Shown: piece by piece, positions 25,248 through 64,000 of the stretch
How the letters are laid out: each line of letters starts with the position of its first letter
How positions within the stretch are numbered: the stretch's first letter is position 1
Assembly: GCF_024498195.1 (NCBI RefSeq)
Contig: NZ_CP101824.1
Location: 2,542,001 to 2,606,000, forward strand
From: Halovivax cerinus
Lineage (GTDB): Archaea; Halobacteriota; Halobacteria; Halobacteriales; Natrialbaceae
DNA: 64,000 nt
Reading direction: 5' to 3'
Position numbers and translations under genes: made by a program
Notes under the pieces: model-generated
Told to the model about the DNA's origin: nothing
What the model saw: the letters and a program-made list of their open reading frames with translations, nothing else
Database searches by the model: none

Positions 25248-25895
25248 ATGGACCACCCACGGATTCTCATCATGGGCGCACCGGGTGCCGGCAAAGGGAC
25301 ACAGAGTGCGAACATCACCGACGCGTTCGACGTCGAGCACGTTACGACAGGTGACGCGCTGCGTTCGAACGACGACATGGACATCTCGGACCTCGGTCTC
25401 GAGTACGACACGCCACGCGCGTACATGGATCGCGGCGAACTGGTTCCGGACGAGGTCGTCAACGCCATCGTGGAGAAAGCGCTTGCGGACGCTGCTGGCT
25501 TCGTTCTCGACGGCTATCCGCGAAATATGGACCAGGCGAGCGAACTCGAGGACATGACCGAACTCGATGTCGTCCTCTCGCTCGAGGTGAGCGAGGACGA
25601 GTTGATCGACCGACTCACCGGCCGGCGGGTCTGTGCGGATTGTGGTGCGAATTACCACGTCGACTTCGATCCGCCGGAAACCGACGGCGTCTGTGACGAG
25701 TGCGGCGGCGACCTGATCCAGCGCGACGACGACACCGAGGAGACGGTCACGGATCGATTGCGCGTGTACCACGAGAATACCGAACCGGTGATCGAGTATT
25801 ACGCCGAACAGGGACGTCTAGAGCGCATCGACGGCGAGCAGACAGCGGACGCGGTGTGGGACGACATCAGGGAGACGATCGAACGGGCCGCGTGA
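25248..25895 (+). CDS. adk: Adenylate kinase
   Basis: 215 residues of the long, zinc-containing Adk class. The P-loop [10 protein letters not shown] is at residues 9-18, [16 protein letters not shown] is the NMP-binding core, and the lid holds a zinc knuckle (CADCGANYH, then CDECGG). It catalyses ATP + AMP = 2 ADP. In many haloarchaea adk sits between secY and a DUF106-cmk-truB block; here neither neighbour is present. It has its own TATA box. Confidence 0.95.
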
Positions 25896-25984: not shown

Positions 25985-28579
25985 TCAGTCGTCGATGGTC
26001 ACCGTCGTCGTCCGGACCTCGATCGCGAACTCGTTCGACCAGTCGGCCGTGGATTCGAAGGAGTTGACCGATAATGCGGTCATATTCCGCTCCTGGACGT
26101 CCTCTCCGATATTTCTGAAGAGTTCGTTGAGTTCACTCGCGTTGGAGACGTGGGTGTAGTTCCCACCGGTGATGTCGGCGATGTCCATCAGGAGCTCTTC
26201 GTCGATGTCTCGCTCGTCGCCGAGTCCAACAGTGTATATCGTCACGTTGTCCGTGGCGGCGTCGCCCGCGAGTTCCCGGGTTTCGCTTCCGTCCTCGTCG
26301 CGGCCGTCGTTTCGTCCGTCGGTCAAGACGATCATGATCTTCTCAGAGTCGTCCGTCGGATCGTAGTACTCGAGTGCTTCGTCGATTCCCGCGCCGATGT
26401 ACGTGCCACCGTTCGCGTTCGCCTCCAGGGACTCGTTGAAGTCGTCGAAGTTCGAGTGGGTATAGAGCCGATCGGTCAATGGGGACGCGTATCGGTTGAA
26501 CTCGACTGCTCCGGCTTTATCACCCGGTTTCATCTGCCCGACGAACGCTCTCGTGGCGTCGATTCGTTGTCCGGACGGGTCGTTCTGCGTAGAGATGTAC
26601 ACGAACTGTCTATCACAGCTATGACAACCCACCCTCGTCTCGTCTCCGGGTTCGATCACGCCGGACTCACCGGGTTCGACCGTCCTCACTCCACCCGACC
26701 CTCTCACGTCTACCGAGAATCGCTCGCTCGGATGGACCCTGAAACGTCCGGTAAACGAGGGTTCGATCCAATTCCGACCGACGTATTCGTACTGGTACAG
26801 TTCCATCGACCCCGACCGATCTAGCGCGAACATGACGTCGACCGGTTTCCGTTCGCCGGGGTGTGGGATCTCGAGGCCGCGATTCGCCTGCGGAATCGGC
26901 ACGTCGGTCCGGAGCGTCCTGTCGAAGTGGACGGTGGCGTCACCCCCGATATCGGTCTCGCCGCCGACGACGGCACCGTAGATCTCCGCGTCTTCTTCGA
27001 TCGTCACCTCGCTTCCGGGCGCGTAGAGGACGCCGTGGAACTTACCCTCGATTTTGATCGTTGCGTCTTCCGTCCCGTACACCCAGAGGCTGCGCGCGCG
27101 TTCGTCGTCGATGGTGACGTCCGTCAGGGTAATCGGTCCGTCGACGTAGACGTGCGCCTGTCCGTCCCCCGTGACGGTGACGCCGTCGAAATTGGCACCG
27201 TTCGAAGCGCCGATGTGAATCGTCCCGCCACTCGTGTCTATCGTATCGATCTGCCCGGCACCGATCCGTCCGTTCCCGTTCGGGCGGTACAGCGCGGTCG
27301 ACTCTCCCGACGGTACCGAGAGCGGATCGTCGATCCGGGTGGGGTTTTGCTGGTCGATGGTTGTGATCGCTCTGGAGATGTTGGCGTCGATGGACGGGAT
27401 CGGCGCGAACGTAGTGTCCAGCTTCGCTCCGTACACGTCGGCAGGATACGTCCCGGTGACGTTGTAGAGGGGCGTCCCCGTCTGGGTGTCGTCGCCGAAC
27501 GAGGAGACGTCGAACGCCGTGGCGTACCCGACCGTGGTGACGTCCGCGCCGGGCACACCGGTGAGTTGTCCATTGGCGACCGGCACACCATCGACCGTCC
27601 CAGTCCCTTCGAGTGCGAGGCTCTCGTTGGTGATGAAGAGGTCTTCCGTGATGTTGTCCGGATCCGTCCCATCCCAGCCGACGCTGCCGTCGTATCGATC
27701 GACCGTGAGTCGATCACCGATCGGTCCGGTCTCTTCTGCGTAGAGTCCACCGTAGATGGTCGGGTCCAGATCGATGAAGCTCTCGAACGGTTGCGCCGCT
27801 CCGAGCGAGGCCGTGGCGGTAACTTTCTGCTGGCTCCCGTCGTAGGTTACGTGTGTGTCGCCGAACGTCGAATTGAAGAACTGGGCCCAGCCCTGATGGT
27901 ACGGTGACCCGTCGACCGTCAGTTCGATCTCGGTGGCCTCGTTCACCTCGTCGGTACAGGCATCCGAACTCGCCCGCTCGTAGGATGCCCTGTGAGTGCC
28001 ACTCCCGGCGGTACCCTGCAGATCCGTGAGTGACAGCTGGACACCGTTTACCTCTTCTCCGCCAGCTTCCGTCGTGTAGTACCGGATATCGGGGCCAGAG
28101 AGGACGCGCGACCCGCTATCGGTTTTCTGGAAGAGTCCACCCGCCTGGTGAGCGATCGTCGATCCATCTGATCGCTGTGAGCGCAACGTCCCCATCGATT
28201 CGTTCAGGAGGGTACACCGGGTTCCGGACCACGTCGTTACAGAGACGTTGATTCGTCCCTCGTCTGTGATGTTGTATCCGCCATCGTTCAGTAATTCGAT
28301 CGCCCCTTTCTCGCTGGCGATGTCGTGGTCGACCTGCCGAAGCACCTGTTCGCCCTGTTCGTCCGACGTGGACGTCTGCAGGTCGTCTACGAGTGCCATC
28401 CCCGCCAGTGCCACGACGCTGGCACCGATCAGGACCATCCCGAACAGCAATATGATGCCGACGGTTGGGGACACGCCTCGTTCCTGCCCGCTGGCCGGTT
28501 GGTTCCCACCCTCGTCTCCGGCCCCCAATCGTTCTCCCCCCGAGTTCATACTACTATCAGTATTCAGGGTATCAATCAT
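25985..28579 (-). CDS. Pilin-like surface protein with VWA domain (I)
   Basis: 864 residues from ATG 28579 (a second ATG at 28549 is possible). Residues 33-60 read ERGVSPTVGIILLFGMVLIG, the haloarchaeal type IV pilin-like N-terminus, so it should be anchored or assembled at the cell surface by a prepilin peptidase. A long extracellular beta-rich part follows. Around 480-560 comes a bactofilin/PilX-like segment (FHGVLYAPGSEVTIEEDAEI, AEIYGAVVGGETDIG). The C-terminal 280 residues are a VWA domain with a MIDAS site (DRSGS near 587, Thr in GGTYIG, TDG). An insertion of about 70 residues with a CHSC pair directly follows the MIDAS. Likely a metal-dependent adhesin. Confidence 0.75.
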   Translation of the reverse strand: MIDTLNTDSSMNSGGERLGAGDEGGNQPASGQERGVSPTVGIILLFGMVLIGASVVALAGMALVDDLQTSTSDEQGEQVLRQVDHDIASEKGAIELLNDGGYNITDEGRINVSVTTWSGTRCTLLNESMGTLRSQRSDGSTIAHQAGGLFQKTDSGSRVLSGPDIRYYTTEAGGEEVNGVQLSLTDLQGTAGSGTHRASYERASSDACTDEVNEATEIELTVDGSPYHQGWAQFFNSTFGDTHVTYDGSQQKVTATASLGAAQPFESFIDLDPTIYGGLYAEETGPIGDRLTVDRYDGSVGWDGTDPDNITEDLFITNESLALEGTGTVDGVPVANGQLTGVPGADVTTVGYATAFDVSSFGDDTQTGTPLYNVTGTYPADVYGAKLDTTFAPIPSIDANISRAITTIDQQNPTRIDDPLSVPSGESTALYRPNGNGRIGAGQIDTIDTSGGTIHIGASNGANFDGVTVTGDGQAHVYVDGPITLTDVTIDDERARSLWVYGTEDATIKIEGKFHGVLYAPGSEVTIEEDAEIYGAVVGGETDIGGDATVHFDRTLRTDVPIPQANRGLEIPHPGERKPVDVMFALDRSGSMELYQYEYVGRNWIEPSFTGRFRVHPSERFSVDVRGSGGVRTVEPGESGVIEPGDETRVGCHSCDRQFVYISTQNDPSGQRIDATRAFVGQMKPGDKAGAVEFNRYASPLTDRLYTHSNFDDFNESLEANANGGTYIGAGIDEALEYYDPTDDSEKIMIVLTDGRNDGRDEDGSETRELAGDAATDNVTIYTVGLGDERDIDEELLMDIADITGGNYTHVSNASELNELFRNIGEDVQERNMTALSVNSFESTADWSNEFAIEVRTTTVTIDD

Positions 28580-28611
28580 AATCTTATGGGAATGTACTGG
28601 GTAGGGGTATG

Positions 28612-28630
28612 TATAAAATAAATATATATG
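28612..28630 (-). promoter_or_regulatory. AT-rich promoter of VWA pilin-like gene I
   Basis: The stretch containing TATAAAATAAATATATATG (plus strand) is a long run of possible TATA boxes in an otherwise GC-rich genome, 33-50 bp upstream of ATG 28579 and 63-80 bp upstream of ATG 28549. It lies in the 180-bp gap after the next pilin-like gene. Confidence 0.6.
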
Positions 28631-28758
28631 GGGATCGCACCATGGTGACGGAACGTGAATAAAACCCGTCGAGATCGAGATTCGATCCCACATCGAGTCG
28701 GAACCGTGGTTCCAGAAGCACCGTACGGCCCCGACCGGTGTGTCGATTTCGGAACCGG

Positions 28759-31140
28759 CTAGCTGTCGAGTGTGAACTGGAACGTCTGGACGTCGAACGC
28801 GTGGTGGTTCGGACGGGGTTTGGCCTCGAAATCGAGATTGACAGCGAGTTCGAGGCTCTCTTCTTCCTCGATGACCTCGTTCAGGATCTGTTCCATGACC
28901 GCCTCGATCTCGTCTGCACCGTGAATTTCGTAGTACTCGCCGCCGGTAGTGTTGGATATGTTTTGCATCATCCCGGCGTCGGCAGCGTCGAACGCGATAG
29001 TCCAGATCGTCACGTCGTCCGCTGCGGCTCGACTCGCCTGGGCGATCGTCGTCTCGTTCGCGTGTTCGTTCGCCTCCTCACAGTTCCAATAACACGGGAC
29101 GTCGTTTGCGCCGTCAGTCAGGAGGATCATGTGTTTCTCGCCTCCGTCGTCGACTGCGGCGTGATTGTCGAGCGCGACCTTCATCCCCGTGCTGATGTTG
29201 GTTCCGCCCTCTTCCTCGGCGCGAACGGTCTCCTTTACCGAGTCGAGATCGTGGCTGATCTCGTGTCGCGTCCGTCCCTCGGTGTTGAACTCGAAGACGC
29301 CGGCTCGATGGTACCCGGGGCTGAGCATATCGATCGCGTTCTTCGTCGCCGGTTCGATCTGGTCGTACTCGTCGTTCCATTCCATCGACCCGGTCGCGTC
29401 GAGGACGAAGCTCACGTCCAGATCGTTGGGCTCGCTGGCAGACCACGACTGGTTGAGATCGTCGTCGGCCAGTGCCTCGGCGGATCTGAGCGCGCGATCG
29501 AAGTGGACGTCGACGTCGTCGCCGATGTCCGGTTCCCCGGCGACGACGCTGCCGTAGATTTCGGTCCCGTCGTCGAGTTCGAGCGACGTGCTTCCCGGCG
29601 CGTAGACGACGCCCTGGAACGTTTCATCGATCTCGATGTCGGCGTTCGACGTCCCGTAGATCCAGAGGCTACTTGCCGTCTGGTTGGGTATCGTGACGTT
29701 GGAAAGTTCGACGTCTCCGGTGACGTAAATGTGGGTCTGTCCGGACCCGGTCACGGCGACATCTTCCATCGTCAGGTCACCTGTTACGCCGATGTGTACA
29801 GCGGAGCCGGACCCCGTTTCGATGGGGTCATTCGACAGATCGACATTGCTGCTCGACACGTATAGCCCCTCGTCGATGGGCCCGTTGATGGGGAGTGGAT
29901 CGGCGGTGCCGTCGAGGAGCCCGATCGCGTTGGCCACTTCGGTGTCGATCGAATCGATCGAATCGAAGCCGTTCCTGGTGAGCTTCGCAGTGAGGACGTC
30001 CGGGTTGTGCTGGGCGGACTCGTTCGCGTTCCCGTAGAACGCGAAGGGGGTGACGCTCGGTCCCTGACCGAATCTGATGCTTCCGTTCGACACCGGTAAC
30101 CCGTCGATGTCGGCGCTCGGACGGAGATTCACGCGCTTGTCGTGGGGGACGTCGATGGTGAAGAGGTCCGGAGAGGCGTTCGAGGCGTCGTACGTTCCGT
30201 TTCGACTGTCGTAGTTGTCGACGGAGAGCGTGTTCGACTCGAGAGCCACGTTGCGCGTCGACTCGACGTGAAGGCCGCCGTAGATGTCCGGATAGACTTC
30301 GATGTACTGTGAGAACGGCCGGTCGTGATCGATGTCGGCGTCGACGACGACGGTCTGGTTCCCCGTGAAGTGGCTGACCGCGGAGGAGCCGAACTCTTCC
30401 GAAAGGAAGCTCGCCCAGGCGTGGTGATACGTCGAGTTTTCGATGCGGATCTCCACGCCGGTGACGTACGTGATGTTCTGGAGCGTTTCGCGGGATCGGT
30501 TCCGAGCCTGTTGTTCGACGCGATTCTCACCCTGACTGAGGTTGCCCTGGAGGTCGACGACGGAGAACGACAGCCGCTTCGATTCGACGCCGGAGGCGTT
30601 CTCCGACCCGTACCGAAGTGAGGGGTCTTTGTGGACGTAACTGCTCTCGTCGTCACCGACGAAGATTCCACCACCCTGGTATCCGACAGTGCCCTCACCC
30701 GGTGCGTCGAGCCGAACCGTCTGGAGCGGAAGGTCCGGAACGACCGGTTCTTCCGAGCCGAACTGTCCCTTCGCGGTGATGGTGAGCGTCCCGTCCTGTA
30801 CCATCTCGTACTCGCCGGAGAGTGCAAACGAGCGGACGTCGTCGGGGTCGTACCCTTGCGTCGCCAGCGTGTGGTCCAGTTGGGACAGTTCGTTCAAGCC
30901 TTGCTGGTGAGTCGACTCCGCTTCCAGGGAGTCGACGAGTGCCATTCCGGAGACCGCGAGTACCGCGGCACCGATGGCCACCATGCCGAACAGGAGGACG
31001 ATGCCGGCGACTGCGGAGATACTCCGATCCGTTCGTGCGTCTGTATCGGTGCCGAATCCAGCTTCGGTCGACGACGAGCCTGATTTGCCGGCCGACCACG
31101 AGTCTGTGTTCGACCGAGAGTCCCCAATCCCCAGCGTCAT
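28759..31140 (-). CDS. Pilin-like surface protein with VWA domain (II)
   Basis: 793 residues, paralogue of the gene at 25985-28579. A hydrophilic leader is followed by the pilin-like helix (ISAVAGIVLLFGMVAIGAAV, residues 41-60). The middle is beta-rich with many N-glycosylation sequons. A bactofilin/PilX-like segment (FQGVVYAPGSTSLELDDGTE, GTEIYGSVVAGEPDIG) precedes a C-terminal VWA domain from about residue 575: MIDAS DATGS, Thr in GGTNIS, and LLTDGAND. No large insertion follows the MIDAS, unlike paralogue I. A CYWNC cysteine pair lies just after the TDG motif. Probably a surface adhesin or pilus-tip protein. Confidence 0.75.
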   Translation of the reverse strand: MTLGIGDSRSNTDSWSAGKSGSSSTEAGFGTDTDARTDRSISAVAGIVLLFGMVAIGAAVLAVSGMALVDSLEAESTHQQGLNELSQLDHTLATQGYDPDDVRSFALSGEYEMVQDGTLTITAKGQFGSEEPVVPDLPLQTVRLDAPGEGTVGYQGGGIFVGDDESSYVHKDPSLRYGSENASGVESKRLSFSVVDLQGNLSQGENRVEQQARNRSRETLQNITYVTGVEIRIENSTYHHAWASFLSEEFGSSAVSHFTGNQTVVVDADIDHDRPFSQYIEVYPDIYGGLHVESTRNVALESNTLSVDNYDSRNGTYDASNASPDLFTIDVPHDKRVNLRPSADIDGLPVSNGSIRFGQGPSVTPFAFYGNANESAQHNPDVLTAKLTRNGFDSIDSIDTEVANAIGLLDGTADPLPINGPIDEGLYVSSSNVDLSNDPIETGSGSAVHIGVTGDLTMEDVAVTGSGQTHIYVTGDVELSNVTIPNQTASSLWIYGTSNADIEIDETFQGVVYAPGSTSLELDDGTEIYGSVVAGEPDIGDDVDVHFDRALRSAEALADDDLNQSWSASEPNDLDVSFVLDATGSMEWNDEYDQIEPATKNAIDMLSPGYHRAGVFEFNTEGRTRHEISHDLDSVKETVRAEEEGGTNISTGMKVALDNHAAVDDGGEKHMILLTDGANDVPCYWNCEEANEHANETTIAQASRAAADDVTIWTIAFDAADAGMMQNISNTTGGEYYEIHGADEIEAVMEQILNEVIEEEESLELAVNLDFEAKPRPNHHAFDVQTFQFTLDS

Positions 31141-31462
31141 TGGTATCCCAGTAGTCGCTCCTTCGTTATAACATTATTTATCAGTATTACAAAATTATAT
31201 CTCACTTCGCGGTGACGTTTCGGGGCCGGTGATAAATTATCGGTTGTATTATGTATAGAAATCGAACCAGTGACCCCCAGTTCGTCAGTATCGACTCTAC
31301 CTGTCTCAATCCGACAACCTCGAATACCCCTTCAGGTACTGGTCCCACCGCAAGTGTTCCTGGGGACTGACAAGTGGATACTGTTCCAGGAGTGTCGACG
31401 TCCGAATCGGCGGGGAGTTCGGAGATGTCGGTGTCCCTCGGGTGACGGGATCGATGTGCAGG
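31141..31462. promoter_or_regulatory. AT-rich spacer and promoter of VWA pilin-like gene II
   Basis: The first 65 bp next to ATG 31140 are strongly AT-rich, with CATTATTTATC at about 31172-31182 at TATA distance on the minus strand and ATTATAT at 31194-31200. The remainder has no gene I can support; a short frame at 31270-31512 shows no family. The three pilin-like genes thus have separate promoters. Confidence 0.5.
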
Positions 31463-32971
31463 TTAGTCGTTGTCGACGTCCATCTCGTGGACGGCGACGT
31501 TCAGATACGTAAGCTGTGGCGGCAGCGAGTAGCCGTCCGGGTAGGGGTCCAGATCACGGTTCGTGAGATTCTGGTCGTAGTCGAAATCGTTTCCGTTCGA
31601 GTGGGCGCAGACGGAGTAGGCGATCATCGATCCGGTGAAGTCGGCCCCGTTTGCTTGCTCGCGGACCTGGTGATGATCGTCGCACCGACCTCCGGCGTTG
31701 TTCCACCACTTCTTCTCTTCATTCGATGCAACGTATAGTATTCCCTCGAACGTTCCACCAGATCCAGGGCCGAGGTCGACACCCATGGTCGACGGGCCGT
31801 AAAACTGGATCGCGGTAGCATCGCCAGCACAGCCCCCGCCGGACTCGATACAGATGTCTCCATCGAGGGCGAACTCGTCCCCGGCCGCGTATATGCGCAA
31901 TACGTTCTTCTCCGCCGCGTCACGGTTGGTGACGTGGATACTTCCGGCGTCGAGTTTCACGTCGCCTCCGATCACGAGGGTAACGTTGCCAGTCGAGAGA
32001 TCGACGTCTTCCTCTACGTTGCCGTCGATTTCGTCGACGTAGTATCTCCCGGCGGTGAGTGTCGAGTGGGTAGCGGGATCTTTCGTCGACGGATCGGTTT
32101 TCGCGTCCTGAACGAGCTCGGTAATCACGGGGTCCATCTCCGGGAGGAGCATCCCCATCCGGTACTCGTTGCCGATATTCCCGTGTTGATCGTGGAGGTA
32201 TTTCGGGTCTTTCCCGCCGATCGTCGCGCCGTTTTGGACCGCTTCGTCGATGTCGAAGTATCCGAACTTGACGACGACAGTTTGGTTCGAGTGATGGACG
32301 GCGTCGACGACGCCGGATCCCGCTTCCTCCTCGAAGTACGTCTCCCAGCCGCGGTAGTACGGACTCTCAATTGTGACGGTGACGGTGTCGTTTCTCACGA
32401 GATTCGCCCGTTGCATCGGGTCGGTCGAGTTGGTTCGGATGGAGATCGGTCCGGACGACAGATCCTTCTGCTCTCGCAGGTTGGTGATCGGGAACCGAAG
32501 CGATTCGCCGTCCGCATCGTACGTGATCGGTGGACGAGACAGGACTTCGGTTTGATTTCCACGTTCGGCGAAGACAGCCCCGGCCTGGTAGGCGATGATA
32601 CCTCCGTCCGTGTGTCTGTACTCGATCGCTCCGACCGACCGCGTGACGTTGACGTCTCCACCCTTGATGGTGATATTGCCCGCGTTGGTTTTCGTAATCG
32701 CCCCGGAGTCCCCCGCATCGAAGGACATCGAACTCGGCGTTTCTCGGTCCGTCGTTTCCGTCGTCATCGTCTGACCCAGCTGGACGAACGATTGCTGGAC
32801 GCGTTCCTGCTCGGCCTGACTTTGCGTGTCGGAGACGGCTCCGCTCGCGACGAGCATCAGCCCAAGGGCGCCGATCGCGACGAGTCCGACGAGGAGAACG
32901 ACGCCGATTACTTCCACCTGCGCCCGCCTCGGCGTTCCGTCTCCCCCCGGCGCAGGATTTCCGACAGTCAT
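31463..32971 (-). CDS. Pilin-like surface protein without VWA domain (III)
   Basis: 502 residues. The N-terminus RRAQVEVIGVVLLVGLVAIG (residues 15-34) is the pilin-like helix, followed by a Gln/Glu-rich amphipathic segment and beta-rich repeats. The C-terminal half carries the same bactofilin/PilX-like pattern as the two VWA proteins (GGTFEGILYVASNEEKKWWN, ADFTGSMIAYSVCAH) and several cysteines that could pair outside the cell (CIESGGGC, RCDDHH). There is no MIDAS. A TATA box at about 32991-33002 implies a leaderless transcript. It may be a minor pilin or scaffold for the VWA partners. Confidence 0.7.
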   Translation of the reverse strand: MTVGNPAPGGDGTPRRAQVEVIGVVLLVGLVAIGALGLMLVASGAVSDTQSQAEQERVQQSFVQLGQTMTTETTDRETPSSMSFDAGDSGAITKTNAGNITIKGGDVNVTRSVGAIEYRHTDGGIIAYQAGAVFAERGNQTEVLSRPPITYDADGESLRFPITNLREQKDLSSGPISIRTNSTDPMQRANLVRNDTVTVTIESPYYRGWETYFEEEAGSGVVDAVHHSNQTVVVKFGYFDIDEAVQNGATIGGKDPKYLHDQHGNIGNEYRMGMLLPEMDPVITELVQDAKTDPSTKDPATHSTLTAGRYYVDEIDGNVEEDVDLSTGNVTLVIGGDVKLDAGSIHVTNRDAAEKNVLRIYAAGDEFALDGDICIESGGGCAGDATAIQFYGPSTMGVDLGPGSGGTFEGILYVASNEEKKWWNNAGGRCDDHHQVREQANGADFTGSMIAYSVCAHSNGNDFDYDQNLTNRDLDPYPDGYSLPPQLTYLNVAVHEMDVDND

Positions 32972-33656: not shown

Positions 33657-34313
33657 ATGCACACTGTTATCGTGGGGTATGGGCGGGTCGGTCGTCGGAC
33701 CGCTCGAATTCTGAGAGAAGAAGGCCACGGCGTGACGATCGTCGATTCGGACGCGTCACGGACGGATCGAGCGACGGACGCCGGATTCACGGCGGTGACT
33801 GGGAGTGGCGACGACGAGCACGTTCTGGTCGACGCCGGGATCGAGACCGCTGACGCGGTCGGTGCGTTCACACCCGACCTGAACGTGAACTTCTCGGCCT
33901 GTATGATCGGCGATCATCACGACTGTCGGACGGTGTTGCGAATCGACGAAGACTACCGTGCGGAGTTGTACGAACGCTACGCTGAGAACGTGGACGACGT
34001 GGTCTATCCGGAGCGACTGGGCGCAGCGGGTGCGAAAACGGCGCTCCTCGGCGGTAACTTCAACGTCGTGACCGAGCTCGCGGCCGATCTCCAGCTCCGC
34101 GTCGTCGAGGTGGAGGCGGGATCGCCGGCGATCGGCCGCCGCCTGACCGAACTCGACCTGCCGACGGAGGTCCGCGTGTACGCTCACGGGAGCGACGACG
34201 AGGCGCTAACCATCCCGCTGCCGGGGATCGAACTCGCCGCTGGCGACGAACTCGCCGTCATCACTGACGACGCCTCGGTCGAGTCGTTACGGACGCAGTT
34301 TTCGGCCGCCTGA
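33657..34313 (+). CDS. TrkA-family NAD-binding regulator (RCK_N + RCK_C)
   Basis: 218 residues. The first ~120 form a Rossmann fold with the dinucleotide motif VGYGRVGRRTA (residues 6-16) and the acidic end of strand 2 (TIVDSD). The last ~85 ([20 protein letters not shown] to GIELAAGDELAVITD) are a TrkA-C ligand-binding domain. Such proteins gate Trk/Kef-type potassium channels or transporters in response to nucleotides. No transporter gene lies next to it, so it may work in trans. TATA at about 33624-33634 supports ATG 33657. Confidence 0.85.
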   Translation: MHTVIVGYGRVGRRTARILREEGHGVTIVDSDASRTDRATDAGFTAVTGSGDDEHVLVDAGIETADAVGAFTPDLNVNFSACMIGDHHDCRTVLRIDEDYRAELYERYAENVDDVVYPERLGAAGAKTALLGGNFNVVTELAADLQLRVVEVEAGSPAIGRRLTELDLPTEVRVYAHGSDDEALTIPLPGIELAAGDELAVITDDASVESLRTQFSAA

Positions 34314-41458: not shown

Positions 41459-41785
41459 TCAATTCGACCCGTCCGTTTCGTCGGCCCCAGTTGGCGAATC
41501 GGGGGACGGGTTCGCCGGCGGGACACGCTGTGGCATCGTCCGGTGTCGCGGGCGACCCTCGTCCGTGTACTGTCGGCGGGCGACCGCGTTGGCCCGTTTG
41601 GCACCGTCCCACTCTTCGAGCATCCCGTAGGCGTTCATCGTCTCCATTCCGGCGATCGCCGCCGAGAGGCTGATTCCGACGAGCGGCACGTCGGCGACGC
41701 TCACGACGACGTCTGCCCTGAGAACGGCGCCGTCGCGGAGCAGGACGTCGACCAGGTCGACCAGCCCTTCGTCCGTCGGTTCCAC
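41459..41785 (-). CDS. gvpM: Gas vesicle protein GvpM
   Basis: 108 residues of the GvpA/J/M family. The conserved core is LVDLVDVLLRDGAVLRADVV followed by VSVADVPLVGISLSAAIAGM, with a family-variable polar tail. Its place after gvpL at the end of the leftward operon identifies it as GvpM and not GvpJ. GvpM is a minor, hydrophobic component needed early in vesicle nucleation. Two bases separate it from gvpL. Confidence 0.85.
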   Translation of the reverse strand: MEPTDEGLVDLVDVLLRDGAVLRADVVVSVADVPLVGISLSAAIAGMETMNAYGMLEEWDGAKRANAVARRQYTDEGRPRHRTMPQRVPPANPSPDSPTGADETDGSN

Positions 41786-41787
41786 GA

Positions 41788-42723
41788 TCAGGGCCCCTCC
41801 GTCTCGTCGTCAGCGCCGTCGAACGAGGGGACGAACGAGTACGGTGGCCAGGGACCGGTGAACCGGACGGTGATCCCCTCCCGGTCGGCGACCGTATCGA
41901 GGATGGATCCGACGTCGTCGACGGCGTCGTCGGTCGCGAGCAGGGCGAACCGGCAGACGGGTTCGCCGGTTTCACCGTCTTCGTCAGCTGCGGTGCCTTC
42001 GCCGGGTGACTGGCCGCTCTCCGCGTCGGAACCGTTCCTCGCGTCTCCGAGCGTGACCGACGGCCGTCTGTCGAGCACTTCCAGTCGCGAGACGAGGCCG
42101 TCGATCCGCTCGCGAACGCTGCTCGCCAGCCGACGATCACGCTCGCGGCGCCGTTCCGACAGTTTCCCCTCGTACTGCTTTTCCAGGAGGTGGGCGGTCC
42201 CCTCGGTGGCGTCGTCGATCCGGTTCCGGAGGTCGGCCAGTTCGCCGTCGGTCGCCTCGAACTCGTCAGCGGGTATCGGCTCCGTTCGGCGAACCTCGAT
42301 GCGGTACTCGTTCGCACCAGCGACGTCGTCCAGAACGGTTCGGAGCGCGTCCCGTTCGGCCGCGAGCCACTCGGCGACGGCATCGTCGCCCCCACGGACG
42401 ATGGTGTCGAACTGGAACGGGATCGGCGTCCCGAACGTCTCGGTGGCCTCGTCCACGACTCGCTGGTGCTGGACGAGCCACTGCCGGACGATTCTGGGGT
42501 CGGCCGCGTCGTAGAGCGCGTCGCACCGGTGAACGATCGCCCCGAGCGTGGAACCACCGTCGGCATCGGCGACCACGGTGACGGGTTCGTCGTCGACGCC
42601 CGTCACCTGCAACTCGTCGTCCGTGTCACCGAGCGAGACCACGCTGTAGAGGTACCGGCCATCGGTGAGGTCGGGGCGACCGTCTTCGGCCGCAGCAAAA
42701 CCGGCGGGTGCGTCGTCGGTCAC
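41788..42723 (-). CDS. gvpL: Gas vesicle protein GvpL
   Basis: 311 residues of the GvpL/F family. GRYLYSVVSLGDTDDELQVT at the start and VRFTGPWPPYSFVPSF at the end are diagnostic; FGTPIPFQFDTIVRGGDDAV lies in the middle. The central helical segment (HLLEKQYEGKLSERRRERDR) is typical. GvpL contacts most other accessory Gvp proteins in Halobacterium. Confidence 0.92.
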   Translation of the reverse strand: MTDDAPAGFAAAEDGRPDLTDGRYLYSVVSLGDTDDELQVTGVDDEPVTVVADADGGSTLGAIVHRCDALYDAADPRIVRQWLVQHQRVVDEATETFGTPIPFQFDTIVRGGDDAVAEWLAAERDALRTVLDDVAGANEYRIEVRRTEPIPADEFEATDGELADLRNRIDDATEGTAHLLEKQYEGKLSERRRERDRRLASSVRERIDGLVSRLEVLDRRPSVTLGDARNGSDAESGQSPGEGTAADEDGETGEPVCRFALLATDDAVDDVGSILDTVADREGITVRFTGPWPPYSFVPSFDGADDETEGP

Positions 42724-42736
42724 GGCTGTTCACCTC

Positions 42737-43078
42737 TCACGGCCGCTCACCTCCCGGGAACTGCCCCGGAGTATCCCCGTCTCCGAACTCGACGTCGCCG
42801 AGGCGCTGGATCGCGTCTCCGACGAGACCGTCGAGTTCGCCCCGAACGCGATCGACGTCGTCGGTGATCTCCTGATCTGCCTCGATCTCCGCGATCTGGT
42901 CCTCGATGGCCGCGAGCTGTCGCCCGAGTCGGTCGACCTCCTCGTCGGTGAGTCGTCCGGACTCCATGCGCCTGACGGCCTCCCGCTCCAGCGCTTCGAC
43001 GAGTATCTCGACGACGGCGAGGACGAGCGTGAGGAGGCCGTCAGCCGCCGAGTCGCCGTCGACGTCGATTCGCGTCAT
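42737..43078 (-). CDS. gvpK: Gas vesicle protein GvpK
   Basis: 113 residues. The GvpK pattern is DGLLTLVLAVVEILVEALER followed by EAVRRMESGRLTDEEVDRLG, then a helical C-terminus. GvpK is required for vesicle formation. The C-terminal tail is Gly/Asp/Pro-rich. Confidence 0.92.
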   Translation of the reverse strand: MTRIDVDGDSAADGLLTLVLAVVEILVEALEREAVRRMESGRLTDEEVDRLGRQLAAIEDQIAEIEADQEITDDVDRVRGELDGLVGDAIQRLGDVEFGDGDTPGQFPGGERP

Positions 43079-43114
43079 GCTGAACCCTCTACGGTCATTT
43101 AGATTCCCCCACGG

Positions 43115-43516
43115 TCATTCTGGGTCCTCCTCGGCCGCGTCCGCGTCGGCCGTTTCGAACTCGTCCAGCGTCCGGGAGTCGCCGGTCGGCCGCTCGCCTT
43201 CCGCGGCCTCGTCCTCGGCGGTGACGTTGACGCCGCGGGTCGCGTCGATCGGGACGTTCGGACGGTCTCCCTCGGCCAGTTCCGGCTCGTCGACCGCCTT
43301 CGCGAGACGGTCCATGTCCGTCCCTTCGGGGAACGCGAGGCCGTACTTCGCGGCCGTCTCGAAGGACGCGATGGCCGCCCGCACCTGCACGCCGAGCAGT
43401 TCCGTGTCGCCGATCGAGACGGCGATGTCCGCGTTGATGACGACGCCCTTGTCGAGCAGGAGCTCCAGGACGTCGGCCAGGTCGGCCTGCTGGCGGCTCG
43501 GCTGGAAGTCGGTCAT
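43115..43516 (-). CDS. gvpJ: Gas vesicle protein GvpJ
   Basis: 133 residues. The GvpA-like core is ADLADVLELLLDKGVVINAD followed by IAVSIGDTELLGVQVRAAIA. The acidic C-terminal tail (from about residue 90) is longer than that of GvpA. The start overlaps the stop of the upstream gene (ATGA), implying coupled translation. Confidence 0.9.
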   Translation of the reverse strand: MTDFQPSRQQADLADVLELLLDKGVVINADIAVSIGDTELLGVQVRAAIASFETAAKYGLAFPEGTDMDRLAKAVDEPELAEGDRPNVPIDATRGVNVTAEDEAAEGERPTGDSRTLDEFETADADAAEEDPE

Positions 43517-44433
43517 CAGTCGTACCCCCGCTTCTCGCGTTCGCGGCGGAACCGGTCGCCGTAGATGTGCGTTCTCGTCGGCCCGTCAGAGTGGCGGACC
43601 GTCCGTGGCATGGTCGCGTAGTTCGGTACCGAGGCGACGTCGCTTCGCGTCGTTGGGATGGTCGAGGCGGCCGTCGGATTTCGCGAGTGCGGCGAGCGGT
43701 CCTGCTGGCGCATCTTCTCGCGGTTCGCCTCGACGATCCGCTCGAATGTCCCGTGCGTCTTCAACAGCGCCTCGCGGAACGCGTCGACGCCCTCGATCGC
43801 CTGCTGCTGGATCACCGCCTGGTACTCGGAGGCGTCTCCGTCCGCGATATCGACGTCTCGTTTCAGCTCGTCGGCGGCGGTGTCGGCGACGTCGTCCATA
43901 TCCGTCTCGATCAGGTCGCCCTCGGCCAGGTCGCCGGCGACGTCGTCCAGCACTCCGTCCCCACCGCCGAGCAGTCCCGTATCGTCGTCCCCGCCGCCGA
44001 GGACACCGCCGAGCGCCCCACCGGTATCCTCGTCGTCGAGTTCGTTCGTCGCCGACTCGATCGCGCGTTTCGACTCCCAGACGTCGGTCACGTCCATCGC
44101 GCCAAGCGTCCGACCGAGATCGATCGCCCGGATCACCTGTCTGAGTTGCACGACGGTCGCGTCGTCGCCGCGTAACGCGTCCGGGATCTCTCCCAGCTCG
44201 ATCGCCTCGCGAACGGTGGCACCGTCTATCGCGTCCGGAAGCTCGGAGACGTCGATCGCGTCGAGCAGCTTCTCGGCCTCTCGAAGTATCGTGACGATCG
44301 CCTCGACGTCCGTGCCGATGGCGTCGCTGTCGTTCGCGCCGTCGGCGTCGCCCAGATCGTCGGCGACATCGGTCGCCAGCGATTCGAGCGTCGATTCGAC
44401 GGCAGTCAGTCGGTCGGTGAAATCATCTGTCAT
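43516..44433 (-). CDS. Unknown protein inside the gas vesicle operon (GvpH/GvpI position)
   Basis: 305 residues, between gvpG and gvpJ where Halobacterium has gvpH and gvpI. The first half is acidic and helical (AIVTILREAEKLLDAIDVSE, VVQLRQVIRAIDLGRTLGAM), the middle is a Gly/Asp linker (about residues 135-160), then another helical part (YQAVIQQQAIEGVDAFREAL). The last ~60 residues turn basic and disordered, ending THIYGDRFRREREKRGYD. I see no alpha-crystallin fold of the kind described for GvpH. It could be a fused or diverged H/I replacement or a new accessory gas vesicle protein. Confidence 0.65.
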   Translation of the reverse strand: MTDDFTDRLTAVESTLESLATDVADDLGDADGANDSDAIGTDVEAIVTILREAEKLLDAIDVSELPDAIDGATVREAIELGEIPDALRGDDATVVQLRQVIRAIDLGRTLGAMDVTDVWESKRAIESATNELDDEDTGGALGGVLGGGDDDTGLLGGGDGVLDDVAGDLAEGDLIETDMDDVADTAADELKRDVDIADGDASEYQAVIQQQAIEGVDAFREALLKTHGTFERIVEANREKMRQQDRSPHSRNPTAASTIPTTRSDVASVPNYATMPRTVRHSDGPTRTHIYGDRFRREREKRGYD

Positions 44434-44490
44434 GGGTGGATCACTTCGTCTTCGCCGGTCCCGCTTCGGTCACGTCGGCATCCAGGTACG

Positions 44491-44745
44491 TCACCGCTTC
44501 ACCTCGACACGACCGCTAGAGAGCCAGTCGCGTACCTCCTCGGCCACGTCGAGTTCGGCCTCGAGAGCCGCTCGATTTCGCTCGTACTCCTCGCGCGAGC
44601 GCTCGCCGAGTTCGAAGAGGAGGCGATTCTCCGCGATGTCGTCCTGGATCTCCTCGACGTCGTAGAGTTCGTCGAGCGCGGTCGCGTGGAGGGCGTTCGC
44701 GATACTGACGATCGGCCGAAACAGCAGGTCGTCGACGACGATCAT
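44491..44745 (-). CDS. gvpG: Gas vesicle protein GvpG
   Basis: 84 residues, the size of Halobacterium GvpG. MIVVDDLLFRPIVSIANALH and ELYDVEEIQDDIAENRLLFE followed by a helical charged C-terminus identify it. The ATG at 44745 overlaps the GvpF stop (ATGA). GvpG is an essential accessory protein. Confidence 0.9.
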   Translation of the reverse strand: MIVVDDLLFRPIVSIANALHATALDELYDVEEIQDDIAENRLLFELGERSREEYERNRAALEAELDVAEEVRDWLSSGRVEVKR

Positions 44746-45368
44746 CCCTGTGCCCCGATTGTGACGTCCACGAAGCTGTACGGCGCGAAGGGGCCGGTGT
44801 AGCGGACGATGGCGTCCCCGTGGCGCTCTTCCAGCCGGCCGACGGCCCCGTCGAAGGCGTCGCGGTCGTCGCGGTCGACGAGGTAGGAGCGGTTGACGAC
44901 GAGTCGGTCGCTGAACAGCCGGTTTCGCGCGACGTCGCGGGCGATCGGATCGAGTTCCGCGTCGACCGTTTCGCGGATGGCGTCTTCGTCGATCGAGTCG
45001 TTCGGCGGCGTGACGACGGAGACGCCGAGTTCCTCCGCCCCCTCTATCTGGCGCAAACTTTGGGTCAACGCGGATGTTGCTCCCTCGAGTACGTTCGTCA
45101 CCGTCTCTTCGTTCCGGAAGATCATGCCGTAGCGCATGGGGACGACTGTACGCCCGCCGTCGGCAGTCATCACCTCCCGCAACACCTCGTCGTGGCGGCG
45201 AACGTTCTCGTCGGAGCGCTCGGGATCGGCCGACGTGACGTCCGAGACCAGCGCGGCGATCGAGCCGTTCTCGATCGGGTAGACGCGATCGCCGTCGCCA
45301 ACCCCGTCCACCGCCAATACGATCGCCTCGTCGACGTCGACGACGCCGTAAGCGTACGGGCGACTCAC
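44742..45368 (-). CDS. gvpF: Gas vesicle protein GvpF
   Basis: 208 residues if translation begins at the GTG 45368 (VSRPYAYGVVDVDE), matching the length of Halobacterium GvpF; another in-frame GTG at 45401 would add 11 residues. Core landmarks are TVVPMRYGMIFRNEETV, VNRSYLVDRDDRDAFDGAVG and the C-terminal IVRYTGPFAPYSFVDVTIGA. GvpF binds GvpA and is thought to guide it during assembly. First gene of the leftward operon. Confidence 0.9.
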   Translation of the reverse strand: MSRPYAYGVVDVDEAIVLAVDGVGDGDRVYPIENGSIAALVSDVTSADPERSDENVRRHDEVLREVMTADGGRTVVPMRYGMIFRNEETVTNVLEGATSALTQSLRQIEGAEELGVSVVTPPNDSIDEDAIRETVDAELDPIARDVARNRLFSDRLVVNRSYLVDRDDRDAFDGAVGRLEERHGDAIVRYTGPFAPYSFVDVTIGAQG

Positions 45369-45401
45369 TCGGGTCCACCTCCACGCCCCGGTCGTCGGCA
45401 C

Positions 45402-45784
45402 CCGTCGGTGCGCCAGCGGAACCGTCTGTCAGACCCGGGTGGTCTGCCGAACCGTCGACTGTGTCTGGCGATTCGATCCGATCTTGTGGGTGGTCTCGGT
45501 GTCTTCATGACTCGACTTCGCCTCTCCTCGCGTGGACGCCGCCGACCGATCGGCTGCCCGCTCCGTCGTCCCACGTCACCAGTCGCGTATCGCTCTGGAC
45601 GACCTCCCAGTCCCGGGCGTCGGTACCCGTCAGCGTGCTGGACGTCCCGGTTCCGGTCGTCGATCGAGAGCGCTTCGGTCGGCACCTGTGCGTCACGGGC
45701 GGACTCCAACGTGACGGCCCCTTACCATACTGCTTGCACCGGCCACGTCAACGATGATACGTCGGCCTGCGGGACTACGGATGC
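45402..45784. promoter_or_regulatory. Divergent gvpF/gvpA control region
   Basis: The 380-bp gap separates the two gvp operons, as in Halobacterium, where the gvpD/E regulators act on the gvpA promoter. A weak TATA-like CTTACCATACT lies at about 45721-45731, some 55 bp before gvpA. I see no clear TATA box for gvpF. Small frames on the minus strand here are Arg-rich and not credible. Confidence 0.45.
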
Positions 45785-46075
45785 ATGGCATCACCACAAC
45801 GACGGCCGGACTCCTCGAGTCTCGCGGAGGTTCTCGACCGGATCCTCGACAAAGGTGTCGTCATCGACGTCTGGGCGAGAGTCTCGGTCGTGGGGATCGA
45901 ACTCCTCACTGTCGAGGCCCGCGTCGTCGTGGCGTCCGTCGATACGTTCCTGCACTACGCCCACGAGATGGCCAAGATCGAGCGAGCCACCGCCGACGGT
46001 GAACTGTCGGACCTGGAGGAACTCGACATCGAACGGCGACCCGAATCGTCGCCGGTGTCAGCGGAGACGTCCTGA
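45785..46075 (+). CDS. gvpA: Major gas vesicle structural protein GvpA
   Basis: 96 residues. The signature [20 protein letters not shown] and the following [20 protein letters not shown] and [16 protein letters not shown] match GvpA almost residue for residue, including the amphipathic helix-strand-strand-helix that builds the ribbed wall. The C-terminus is about 20 residues longer than usual and charged ([20 protein letters not shown]). Start ATG 45785. Confidence 0.95.
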
Positions 46076-61090: not shown

Positions 61091-61927
61091 ATGTCAGACC
61101 AATCAGAACTGGTGTGTGTCTCCTGTGACACCTCGTTCGATCCGACACCGAACGGTGGATTCTGCCCGGACTGCGATACACCGCACCCCGACTTCGAGGC
61201 CGAGTCAGACGAGGAGCCGACCGACGAGGGCGCGGACGACTCCGAATCGACGGACGCCGAGACGACCGAAGACGAGATCTCGGAGTGGGCCTCGGACGCC
61301 GTGTCGTACTGTCCGGACTGTGGGGCCGACATCGCGGCGGCAGTGGCCGACGCTGGCGACGAAACCGACGGCGACGTCGATGCGTGCCCGGATTGCGGCC
61401 GTTCGGTGACGGACGAATCGTACTGTCCGGACTGCGGGACCGATCTGGACGCGGTTCGAGACGACGCGTCCGACGACGAGTCCGACACGGACGAGCCAGC
61501 GACCGACGAGGGGTCGGATTCGGAGGCGGGTTCCGACGATTCGACGGACGAACAATCCGATGCGGCTGGGGACGAAGACTCCGATGGGCCGACTGACGAC
61601 GAGGACGACTCCGACGCCGAACCTGCATCCGTGACCCTCACCTTCGAGGGTGAGTCGCACAGTTTCGGCGACGGCGACACGTTCGGCCGACAGGACGAAG
61701 ACTGGCTCGAAGCGCTCGTCGAGGCGAGCGGTGGCTCCGACGACGTCGCGTACATCTCGAGCGACCATCTGACGTTCTCCGTCGACGACGACGGCGTCTA
61801 CGTGGAGGATACCAGTCGCAACGGGACGAAGCTGAACGGAACCGATCTCGACGGCGACGAAGCGGAACTCGATGACGGAGACACGCTCGAACTCGCCGAA
61901 CGTGCGGAGATAACCGTAGAACTGTAG
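61091..61927 (+). CDS. FHA-domain protein with zinc ribbons
   Basis: 278 residues. Zinc-ribbon-like Cys pairs occur at CVSC, CPDC (three times), for example YCPDCGADI and YCPDCGTDL, in the first 120 residues, followed by an acidic linker. The last ~90 residues are an FHA domain: EGESHSFGDGDTFGRQDEDW, then SSDHLTFSV and the key EDTSRNGTKLNGTDL. FHA domains bind phosphothreonine, so it is a likely substrate or adaptor of the kinase two genes downstream. Confidence 0.85.
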   Translation: MSDQSELVCVSCDTSFDPTPNGGFCPDCDTPHPDFEAESDEEPTDEGADDSESTDAETTEDEISEWASDAVSYCPDCGADIAAAVADAGDETDGDVDACPDCGRSVTDESYCPDCGTDLDAVRDDASDDESDTDEPATDEGSDSEAGSDDSTDEQSDAAGDEDSDGPTDDEDDSDAEPASVTLTFEGESHSFGDGDTFGRQDEDWLEALVEASGGSDDVAYISSDHLTFSVDDDGVYVEDTSRNGTKLNGTDLDGDEAELDDGDTLELAERAEITVEL

Positions 61928-62128
61928 GACTCCGAAGCGATCGGGTCCTGGGACGGTCGGGTGCTGAGACGTCAGCGGTCGCTCGTATCGAACGGGCGGA
62001 TCTCGCTGCCCGGTCTCCGTCGCGTCGGTCGAACTACGCCAGCGGATGCTTCACGTATCGCTGGTGTCACACCAACTGAACGCTCCGAAAAAGTTATCCG
62101 ACTATCCTGCCACGATATACCAGTCACA

Positions 62129-63334
62129 ATGACGACGAGTATTTCGACGAAGGTCAACCGACCGTACCTCCCCGAGGACGGCGGTGGCATAACGTGTGAG
62201 TTGCTCATCGAACCGGACGCCCGGGACGAGGCGACACAGCGTCACATCGCACTCTGCGTCGACAGCAGCGGGTCGATGGCCTACAGCAAGATGGACCAGG
62301 TTCAGGACGCGACGAAACTCGTCTTCGGCCTGCTCAACGACGACGACTACCTGAGCATCATCACGTTCGACAACGAGGTCGACGTCGTGATGAACGCCAC
62401 GCGCTGGGGTGATATCGAGCGCGAGGAGGCCGAGGATCTCCTCGAGAACATCGAGACCGGCGGCGGGACCGACATCTACGCCGGGCTCGAGGAGGCGCGG
62501 AAGTCGCTGATCGAACTCGACGAGGGCGAAGACATCTCGAAACGCATCCTGTTGCTTTCGGACGGTCGTGACCTTCGGGCGAAGCCCCCGGATTTCGAAC
62601 CGCTCGCGAAGGCGATCGCCGACGCCGGCATCTCGGTCTACTCCGCCGGGATCGGGACGAACTACGGCAAGGAGGTCATTCGAACGGTCGGCGAACACTC
62701 ACAGGGTCGCTGGGCACACGTCGAGAAACCGACGGACATCAGATCGTTCTTCGGCGACGTGGTCCAGGAGGCCTCGACGGTGCTCGCGAACAACCCGGAG
62801 TTGATCCTCGATCCGATCGACGGTTGCGAGGTCGGGATGGCGTTCCGCCGACTCCCCCAGGTGCAGAAGGTCGACGTCGAGACGGCCGACGACGGGAGCG
62901 TCGTGATCGGTCTTCCGGACCTTCAGGACCGGGAGCGACAGGAGGTCGTCCTCAAGATGGACGTGCCGCCGGGGACCGTCGGCGACGAACGGGTCGTCGC
63001 GTCCGTCGAACTCGACTCGGAGACCGTCGACGCCTCGACGGACCTCGCCGTGACCTACTCGGACGACGCCCAGGAACTCTCCCAGCACGAGACCGAAGTT
63101 ACGCTCGCGTACCACGATACCGACCTTCGCACGCGCATCGCCCACGCGGATTCCTCCGACGATCTCGAGGAAGTCAAAGCCAAGATCGACGAGACGGAGG
63201 TCATCACGGGCGAGACGGAGATCGCCGACGTCCTGCGCGAGAACGTCACTCGCATCGAGCAGGGTGACGAGAGCGAAGCTCGTAAGGTCCAGGAGAACAC
63301 CACCGTCGTCTTCGACGACAGTCAGTACAATTGA
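62129..63334 (+). CDS. Cytosolic VWA-domain protein
   Basis: 401 residues from ATG 62129; the frame upstream is open but has no family likeness. The VWA domain has a complete MIDAS: D45-S47-S49 (DSSGS), T114 (GGGTDIYAG), and D145 (LLLSDGRD). No signal peptide is present. After the VWA comes a beta-rich region (LPQVQKVDVETADDGSVVIG) and a charged helical end (DLEEVKAKIDETEVITGETE). VWA proteins of this kind assemble with kinases, FHA or phosphatase partners. The kinase starts 42 bp downstream. Confidence 0.87.
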   Translation: MTTSISTKVNRPYLPEDGGGITCELLIEPDARDEATQRHIALCVDSSGSMAYSKMDQVQDATKLVFGLLNDDDYLSIITFDNEVDVVMNATRWGDIEREEAEDLLENIETGGGTDIYAGLEEARKSLIELDEGEDISKRILLLSDGRDLRAKPPDFEPLAKAIADAGISVYSAGIGTNYGKEVIRTVGEHSQGRWAHVEKPTDIRSFFGDVVQEASTVLANNPELILDPIDGCEVGMAFRRLPQVQKVDVETADDGSVVIGLPDLQDRERQEVVLKMDVPPGTVGDERVVASVELDSETVDASTDLAVTYSDDAQELSQHETEVTLAYHDTDLRTRIAHADSSDDLEEVKAKIDETEVITGETEIADVLRENVTRIEQGDESEARKVQENTTVVFDDSQYN

Positions 63335-63376
63335 TCCGACTCGCCGGATCACGCGTCCACAAACAATTCCGACATC

Positions 63377-64000
63377 ATGTCTGATCCATCCGCTGGAGAC
63401 GTACTCGCCGGCCGGTACGAACTCGAATCGGAAATCGGCCGCGGCGGCTTCGGAGTCGTCTGGCGCGCCCGCGATACGTCGACCGATTCCCCGGTCGCGC
63501 TCAAGTATCCGAACTACGAGGGAAGCGCCCCTGCGGAGATGGTTGATAAGTACTTCGACCGCGAGCGGGAGGTCCTCTCCGATATCCGGGCGGCCGGCGG
63601 CCACCCCCACATCATGGCGTACCACGGTCTCGAGGACGGATTCGGCACGTCCGTCCTCGTCGTCGAACTGATCGAGGGTGACGAACTCGGAGCGGTCGTC
63701 AGGAACGACGATCCGATCACGGATCCCGACGAGGTTCGCGAGATCGGAATCGGAGTCTGCGACGCCCTCTCGTTCCTGCACGACCACGACATCATCTACC
63801 GCGACCTCAAACCCGACAACATCATGCTCGACGGCTCGTACGAGCCGAAGCTCATCGACTTCACGACGGCGAAGGGGTTCGTCGACGAGGTCGGTGGTGC
63901 CGAGTTCACGAGCGGGACCCACTCCCACCCGGGGGCGAGCTCCGAGGGGGATTCGACGGTTCCCGGGGAGTTCAAACCACCCGAACTGAATCGTGGTTCG
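63377..64000 (+). CDS. Hanks-type serine/threonine protein kinase (partial, cut by window end)
   Basis: 208 codons are visible. Glycine loop GRGGFG at residues 21-26, catalytic lysine K43 (VALKYPN), catalytic loop YRDLKPDN with D143 and N148 (Tyr in place of the usual His), DFT at 161-163 in place of DFG, and PPEL in place of APE near 201. The activation loop is rich in Thr/Ser. The rest, perhaps including more domains, lies beyond 64000. With the FHA and VWA genes it looks like one signalling operon. Confidence 0.88.
   Translation, partial: MSDPSAGDVLAGRYELESEIGRGGFGVVWRARDTSTDSPVALKYPNYEGSAPAEMVDKYFDREREVLSDIRAAGGHPHIMAYHGLEDGFGTSVLVVELIEGDELGAVVRNDDPITDPDEVREIGIGVCDALSFLHDHDIIYRDLKPDNIMLDGSYEPKLIDFTTAKGFVDEVGGAEFTSGTHSHPGASSEGDSTVPGEFKPPELNRGS

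Follow-up and report, generated by a model that had tools for sequence, protein, structure and literature searches.

Large modular pilin-like proteins, two with VWA domains, as probable minor pilins of a type IV pilus in Halovivax cerinus

Halovivax cerinus encodes three consecutive proteins that are, in our assessment, somewhat better explained as large modular minor pilins of a haloarchaeal type IV pilus than in any other way; the pilus is probably driven by a PilB4-type motor and would display MIDAS-bearing adhesin modules. We infer cleavage, assembly, a tip position and adhesion. The three are probably pilus adhesins because their relatives adjoin pilus-assembly genes in other haloarchaea. 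Predicted pilins number in the dozens in haloarchaeal genomes, and to our knowledge the filaments of the PilB4 system are largely uncharacterised. These genes are concrete candidates for the large pilins and adhesive parts of that system, and they suggest a role for two families of unknown function, DUF7289 and DUF7305.

Results and Discussion

Gene trio and domain organization

The window (the whole 64,000-nucleotide stretch of H. cerinus DNA analysed, positions 2,542,001 to 2,606,000 of its contig) carries the three genes on its minus strand, with lengths of 864, 793 and 502 residues as given in a preliminary description of this DNA. The 864 residues of gene 1 start with the ATG at 28579; a frame of 902 aa opens at 28693. 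The genes and their modules, from open reading frames and Pfam matches, are:

25985..28579, minus strand, gene 1 (P0001, 864 aa), DUF7289 + DUF7305 + VWA modular pilin-like protein (ORF and Pfam)
27809..28480, minus strand, gene 1 DUF7289 module, pilin helix and beta domain (Pfam)
26906..27400, minus strand, gene 1 DUF7305 module (Pfam)
26099..26839, minus strand, gene 1 VWA domain, with MIDAS DRSGS at 26807-26821 followed by an insertion of ~80 residues (Pfam)
28759..31140, minus strand, gene 2 (P0002, 793 aa), DUF7289 + DUF7305 + VWA modular pilin-like protein (ORF and Pfam)
30319..31026, minus strand, gene 2 DUF7289 module (Pfam)
29485..29964, minus strand, gene 2 DUF7305 module (Pfam)
28873..29418, minus strand, gene 2 VWA domain, with MIDAS DATGS at 29386-29400 (Pfam and Foldseek)
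31463..32971, minus strand, gene 3 (P0003, 502 aa), DUF7289 + DUF7305 without VWA, the constant short member of the locus (ORF and Pfam)
32264..32926, minus strand, gene 3 DUF7289 module (Pfam)
31559..32179, minus strand, gene 3 DUF7305 module (Pfam)

The N-terminal parts match DUF7289 (E-values of 1e-15, 2e-14 and 5e-22 for genes 1, 2 and 3), and the segment already noticed in all three proteins is Pfam DUF7305 (3e-26, 4e-25 and 7e-29). The names first attached to this segment are not supported. Bactofilin (PF04519) scores 13.5 bits against a cut-off of 27.9 in gene 1 and has no match in genes 2 and 3, and PilX is absent from the Pfam matches. The APGS pattern said to mark the segment is present in gene 1 (GVLYAPGS) and gene 2 (GVVYAPGS), but gene 3 has GILYVASN. 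Exactly three genes in the complete 3.9 Mb genome encode DUF7305, and these are the trio. DUF7289 is found in four, the trio and one encoding a 245-aa protein.

Within the trio, VWA (PF00092) was identified in genes 1 and 2 only (E-values of 1e-14 and 2e-10). As proposed beforehand, both have an intact MIDAS, formed by D587/S589/S591/T726/D754 in gene 1 and D581/T583/S585/T647/D676 in gene 2, and the motif is kept in essentially all VWA-bearing members of the family. In both proteins DUF7305 and a linker of at least 100 residues lie between the pilin module and the VWA domain.

The AT content from -40 to -15 is 0.64, 0.68 and 0.60 upstream of genes 1, 2 and 3, compared with an average of 0.35 for the window; roughly 1% of randomly drawn 25-mers attain 0.60. 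Runs of A/T precede the start codon by ~30 bases in genes 2 and 3 and by somewhat more in gene 1. This pattern bears out the AT-rich upstream regions reported earlier and is consistent with a separate putative TATA-type promoter for each gene.

An LPxTG sorting signal and a C-terminal PGF motif are absent from all three proteins. Given the missing LPxTG and the lack of a profile match, identity with the sortase-attached tip pilins of Gram-positive bacteria was rejected. Also rejected were TadE/TadG, with no Tad minor pilin match to the trio in Pfam or NCBIfam up to an E-value of 1, and PilY1, with no Pfam match to the PilY1/Neisseria PilC family.

Two AlphaFold models, built from 12 and 11 sequences, have mean pLDDT values of 58.7 and 66.2, with values below 50 at the start of the helix. 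At this low confidence they show helices at residues 17-72 and 44-94 followed by beta strands, a part that gave no structural match. The overall layout, also of low confidence, is a long N-terminal helix, a beta-rich region, the DUF7305 beta region and a VWA fold. Foldseek comparison of the gene 3 model with solved structures gave nothing significant (best E-value 0.19). Thus, the pilin fold is only weakly modelled and is not confirmed by structure. Foldseek does confirm the VWA fold, and only that fold, with matches that include the pilus adhesins Mfa5, SpaC and PitA. The DUF7305 region of one relative encoded beside a PilB4 operon also matches a putative ice-binding-like adhesive domain (27.8 bits, cut-off 23.8), and there is a hint that DUF7305 may be a beta-solenoid.

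Pilin character of the N-terminal module

A predicted class III processing site was located in each protein by motif:

28469..28483, minus strand, gene 1 predicted site ERG|VS, with the cut after residue 35
31015..31029, minus strand, gene 2 predicted site DRS|IS, with Ser at -1
32915..32929, minus strand, gene 3 predicted site RRA|QV

In all three, judged by motif, [KR][GAS] stands immediately before the sole N-terminal hydrophobic helix. Serine at -1, as in gene 2, is a less usual residue. All 55 relatives have a single hydrophobic segment, near the N-terminus, and a script found [KR][GAS] at this segment in 54 of them, compared with 27 of 156 controls (other proteins of the same loci with an early hydrophobic segment); the relatives are not independent, so these counts are a description rather than a test statistic. 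The one relative missed by the script (locus L054, 524 aa) has ARGQAS when inspected by eye, and one protein of locus L058 has H-G just before the helix and R-S farther upstream. Proteins that are held in the membrane by one helix and never enter a filament would show much the same picture.

In comparisons of close relatives, the helix ranks first or nearly first in conservation (64-80% identity, compared with 49-52% for the beta domain of gene 1). Pilin_N scores above its cut-off in relatives, including the Halovivax asiaticus relative of gene 1. The pilin-like N-terminus attributed to all three proteins is DUF7289, whose relatives include the DUF7289 pilin of the genome's own pilus operon and this Pilin_N-matching protein of H. 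asiaticus. These are clear pilin relatives of the N-terminal module, rather than the ordinary transmembrane anchors lacking pilin-fold neighbours that might have been found. Judged from sequence, the case for the trio as candidate pilins is well supported. The genome encodes one Peptidase_A24 candidate for a prepilin peptidase.

On each precursor, a predicted class III signal (RG|V, RS|I or RA|Q) precedes a lone hydrophobic helix near the N-terminus. Cleavage by a prepilin peptidase would fall just ahead of this helix, and the DUF7289 module would then be loaded into or onto a filament by a PilB/PilC motor, most likely that of PilB4 type at ~3.23 Mb. The parts facing outward would be the beta-rich DUF7305 domain and, in genes 1 and 2, the VWA domain with its complete MIDAS. 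The MIDAS may coordinate a divalent metal by which the domain would contact a ligand located on a surface, another cell or the matrix. The expression 'VWA-tipped' used for these proteins at the outset would, if taken as a position at the filament tip, be presumptive.

Relation to the pilB-pilC machinery

As noted before, no pilB or pilC assembly genes were recognised near the trio in the window. Four T2SSE ATPases are encoded in the genome, all away from the trio. One pilB-pilC operon encodes T2SSE (1187 aa) and T2SSF (687 aa), then DUF7288, DUF7261, DUF7266 and the 245-aa DUF7289 pilin, and this small pilin closing the operon is the fourth DUF7289 protein of the genome. The operon, at ~3.23 Mb, matches the PilB4 locus as set out in PMC4858521, a match by description (extended ATPase, pilin set) rather than by alignment to H. 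volcanii.

The small DUF7289 pilin was found in 47 of 59 genomes of the order. Directly beside its gene, on the opposite strand, is a large DUF7289 gene in 15 of 20 fetched haloarchaeal operons (L116-L130), although these 15 were picked for a close second match that was already visible and the fraction is not a random rate. Across all matching genomes, a nearby second match occurs in roughly 20 of 46. Ten of the 15 operon-adjacent large proteins were scanned: seven have DUF7305, one has DUF7308 and two are without a named C-terminal module. The adjacent large gene is absent from the three Natrialbaceae pilB4 operons inspected (L076, L131 and L134); in this family the large members are at the adenylate kinase locus or elsewhere. 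Thus, in its own genome the trio is linked to PilB4 by homology only.

The H. volcanii PilB4/PilC4 system has been proposed to assemble a structure whose components are two FlaFind-positive pilins of relatively large size (PMC4371748). The euryarchaeal minor pilin arCOG02911 is 250-550 aa long and prone to duplication (PMC4858521). This pilin of PilB3/PilB4 systems is described there as FlaFind-positive, all-beta and linked to PilB4-type pilin sets, and the description fits gene 3 and the PilB4-adjacent genes. By that description, DUF7289 would correspond to arCOG02911. The passages of PMC4858521 consulted make no mention of VWA or CARDB extensions of arCOG02911; VWA proteins of archaeal pili are treated there only as regulators, and TadG is mentioned.

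These contexts bear on two other readings. Pilin-like proteins of this kind might stay unpolymerised, held in the membrane by the helix and showing DUF7305 and VWA through the S-layer; they would then be adhesins fixed to the cell, or would tie the pilus to the membrane in the manner of TadG. The position of the locus away from pilB/pilC in its own genome and the existence of very large members (1000-1370 aa) fit such anchoring. We nevertheless consider it rather unlikely: relatives directly adjoin pilB-pilC-pilin operons, the helix is kept in sequence and not merely in hydrophobicity, and no TadE/TadG family match was obtained. It is very improbable that these are ordinary transmembrane VWA surface proteins, unrelated to pili, that resemble pilins by chance. 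DUF7289 and DUF7305 have no formally assigned function and the AlphaFold models are weak, as such a coincidence would allow, but a DUF7289 pilin lies inside the genome's own pilB-pilC operon, large members adjoin such operons in other families, and both the Pilin_N scores of relatives and the signal motif statistics speak for pilins.

Comparison with known VWA pilins

Modular pilins with VWA domains are established in Streptococcus sanguinis (PMC8179133) and proposed in Caulobacter (PMC12607857), and the possible new adhesin system suggested at first is thus not supported as wholly new. What stands of that suggestion, a minor-pilin adhesin set with VWA domains, is best supported as pilin-like VWA proteins; the third gene lacks the domain.

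Like the bimodular type IV pilin PilB of S. sanguinis (PMC8179133), the VWA members combine an N-terminal class III pilin helix and module with a C-terminal MIDAS-bearing VWA domain, and in both cases extra loop regions flank the MIDAS. Unlike PilB, the trio has DUF7289 in place of the bacterial pilin module, and DUF7305 and a linker separate this from VWA, whereas in PilB a short loop joins the two. The trio proteins are also larger and are encoded in a tandem array away from pilB/pilC. No sequence relation to PilB is known outside VWA. Caulobacter CpaL, a TadG-like Tad minor pilin (PMC12607857), shares a pilin-like module, a MIDAS-bearing VWA domain and the character of a minor component. 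However, the VWA domain of CpaL is split by a beta-rich insert, whereas DUF7305 precedes VWA in the trio, which has no TadE/TadG profile match and would use an archaeal PilB4-type machine. The tip adhesin PilY1 also places VWA on a type IV pilus, but PilY1 is not a pilin.

Among open-licence papers, we found no literature on DUF7305 or DUF7289 and no description of an archaeal VWA pilin, which is not proof of absence. The trio is probably a variant of a kind known from bacteria, the VWA modular pilins, that is apparently undescribed in archaea, as far as the open-licence literature goes. This points to archaea, like bacteria, having grafted VWA adhesins onto their pilins, probably in separate events.

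Distribution and variation of the locus

The trio lies between two conserved genes:

25248..25895, plus strand, adenylate kinase-like gene (named from sequence, not by Pfam), conserved flank in related genera
33657..34313, plus strand, TrkA-N/TrkA-C protein, flank common to five genomes of the genus (sequence comparison)

The adenylate kinase gene flanks the locus in 18 loci, the window included. Gene 2 has matches somewhere in 217 of 391 genomes of the class, and at least 36 genomes have both pilin-module and VWA matches, nearly all of them in the family of the window (Natrialbaceae). The combination of DUF7289, DUF7305 and VWA recurs in other genera; its absence elsewhere would have counted against the earlier proposal. 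A plasmid search yielded weak, partial relatives only, from seven records.

Across the genus (five genomes), the genes run TrkA, a short pilin, two or three large pilins and adenylate kinase. The large pilins are two VWA proteins in the window and in H. asiaticus (G070), one VWA protein and one DUF7289 protein with a sub-threshold CARDB match in G100, two proteins of an unnamed type in G361 and three of CARDB type in G207. A tree of 91 DUF7289 modules sets the small operon pilins apart (support 100/100) and contains a main clade of operon-adjacent large proteins (98/93), a short clade in which gene 3 joins one other row (100/99) and a large VWA clade that holds genes 1 and 2 (99/86). Both VWA genes of H. 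asiaticus join gene 1 and gene 2 pairs with G100, a pattern by which one fixed ancestral trio was rejected. In-place domain swapping was also rejected for the members without VWA: their pilin modules form a separate clade, and thus whole genes were replaced. A better description of the trio is a short pilin that stays constant and large pilins that can be exchanged.

We tentatively suggest that the locus could be an exchangeable pilus-adhesin cassette, in which a constant short pilin accompanies two or three large pilins whose VWA or CARDB heads close species have swapped at one and the same position. Such swaps would set the partner or surface specificity of the pilus and may extend to kin recognition. 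Alternatively, the VWA domain might serve pilus assembly or mechanosensing instead of adhesion to a ligand, along the lines put forward for CpaL, by priming assembly with the short pilin and reporting tension. CpaL has the same build of pilin and VWA-MIDAS, and when it is deleted piliation falls and surface sensing changes (PMC12607857); a constant short pilin beside VWA pilins would also suit a tip complex. We regard this role as unlikely for the trio, given that within the genus CARDB types replace large members, which fits variation in ligand binding better.

The VWA domain of the first gene in the pilin locus (gene 1, window positions 25985-28579, minus strand) carries an insertion of approximately 80 residues, with CHSC cysteines, after the first MIDAS (metal-binding) motif. 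An insertion occurs at the same position in several relatives, and it is absent from the neighboring gene 2. This cysteine-containing segment may shape ligand specificity.

The large gene adjoining the pilB4 operon in another genome (locus L116, 7765-9111) encodes DUF7308 in place of DUF7305. Long haloarchaeal proteins of 1252-1735 aa at three further loci (L071-L073) have a similar VWA domain; a DUF7289 module was not detected in these proteins. In other genera (L042:7638-8579 and equivalents), the pilin locus is flanked by a gene for an EMC3/TMCO1-like membrane protein (PF01956) and by a cytidylate-kinase-like gene.

Also encoded in the window are gas vesicle genes (41459-46075), comprising three Gas_vesicle (GvpA-type) proteins and one GvpL/GvpF protein. 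Consecutive genes at 61091-64000 encode a protein that combines FHA with a zinc ribbon, a VWA protein of 457 aa, and a Ser/Thr kinase; as a group they resemble an ArnA/ArnB-like phospho-signalling set.
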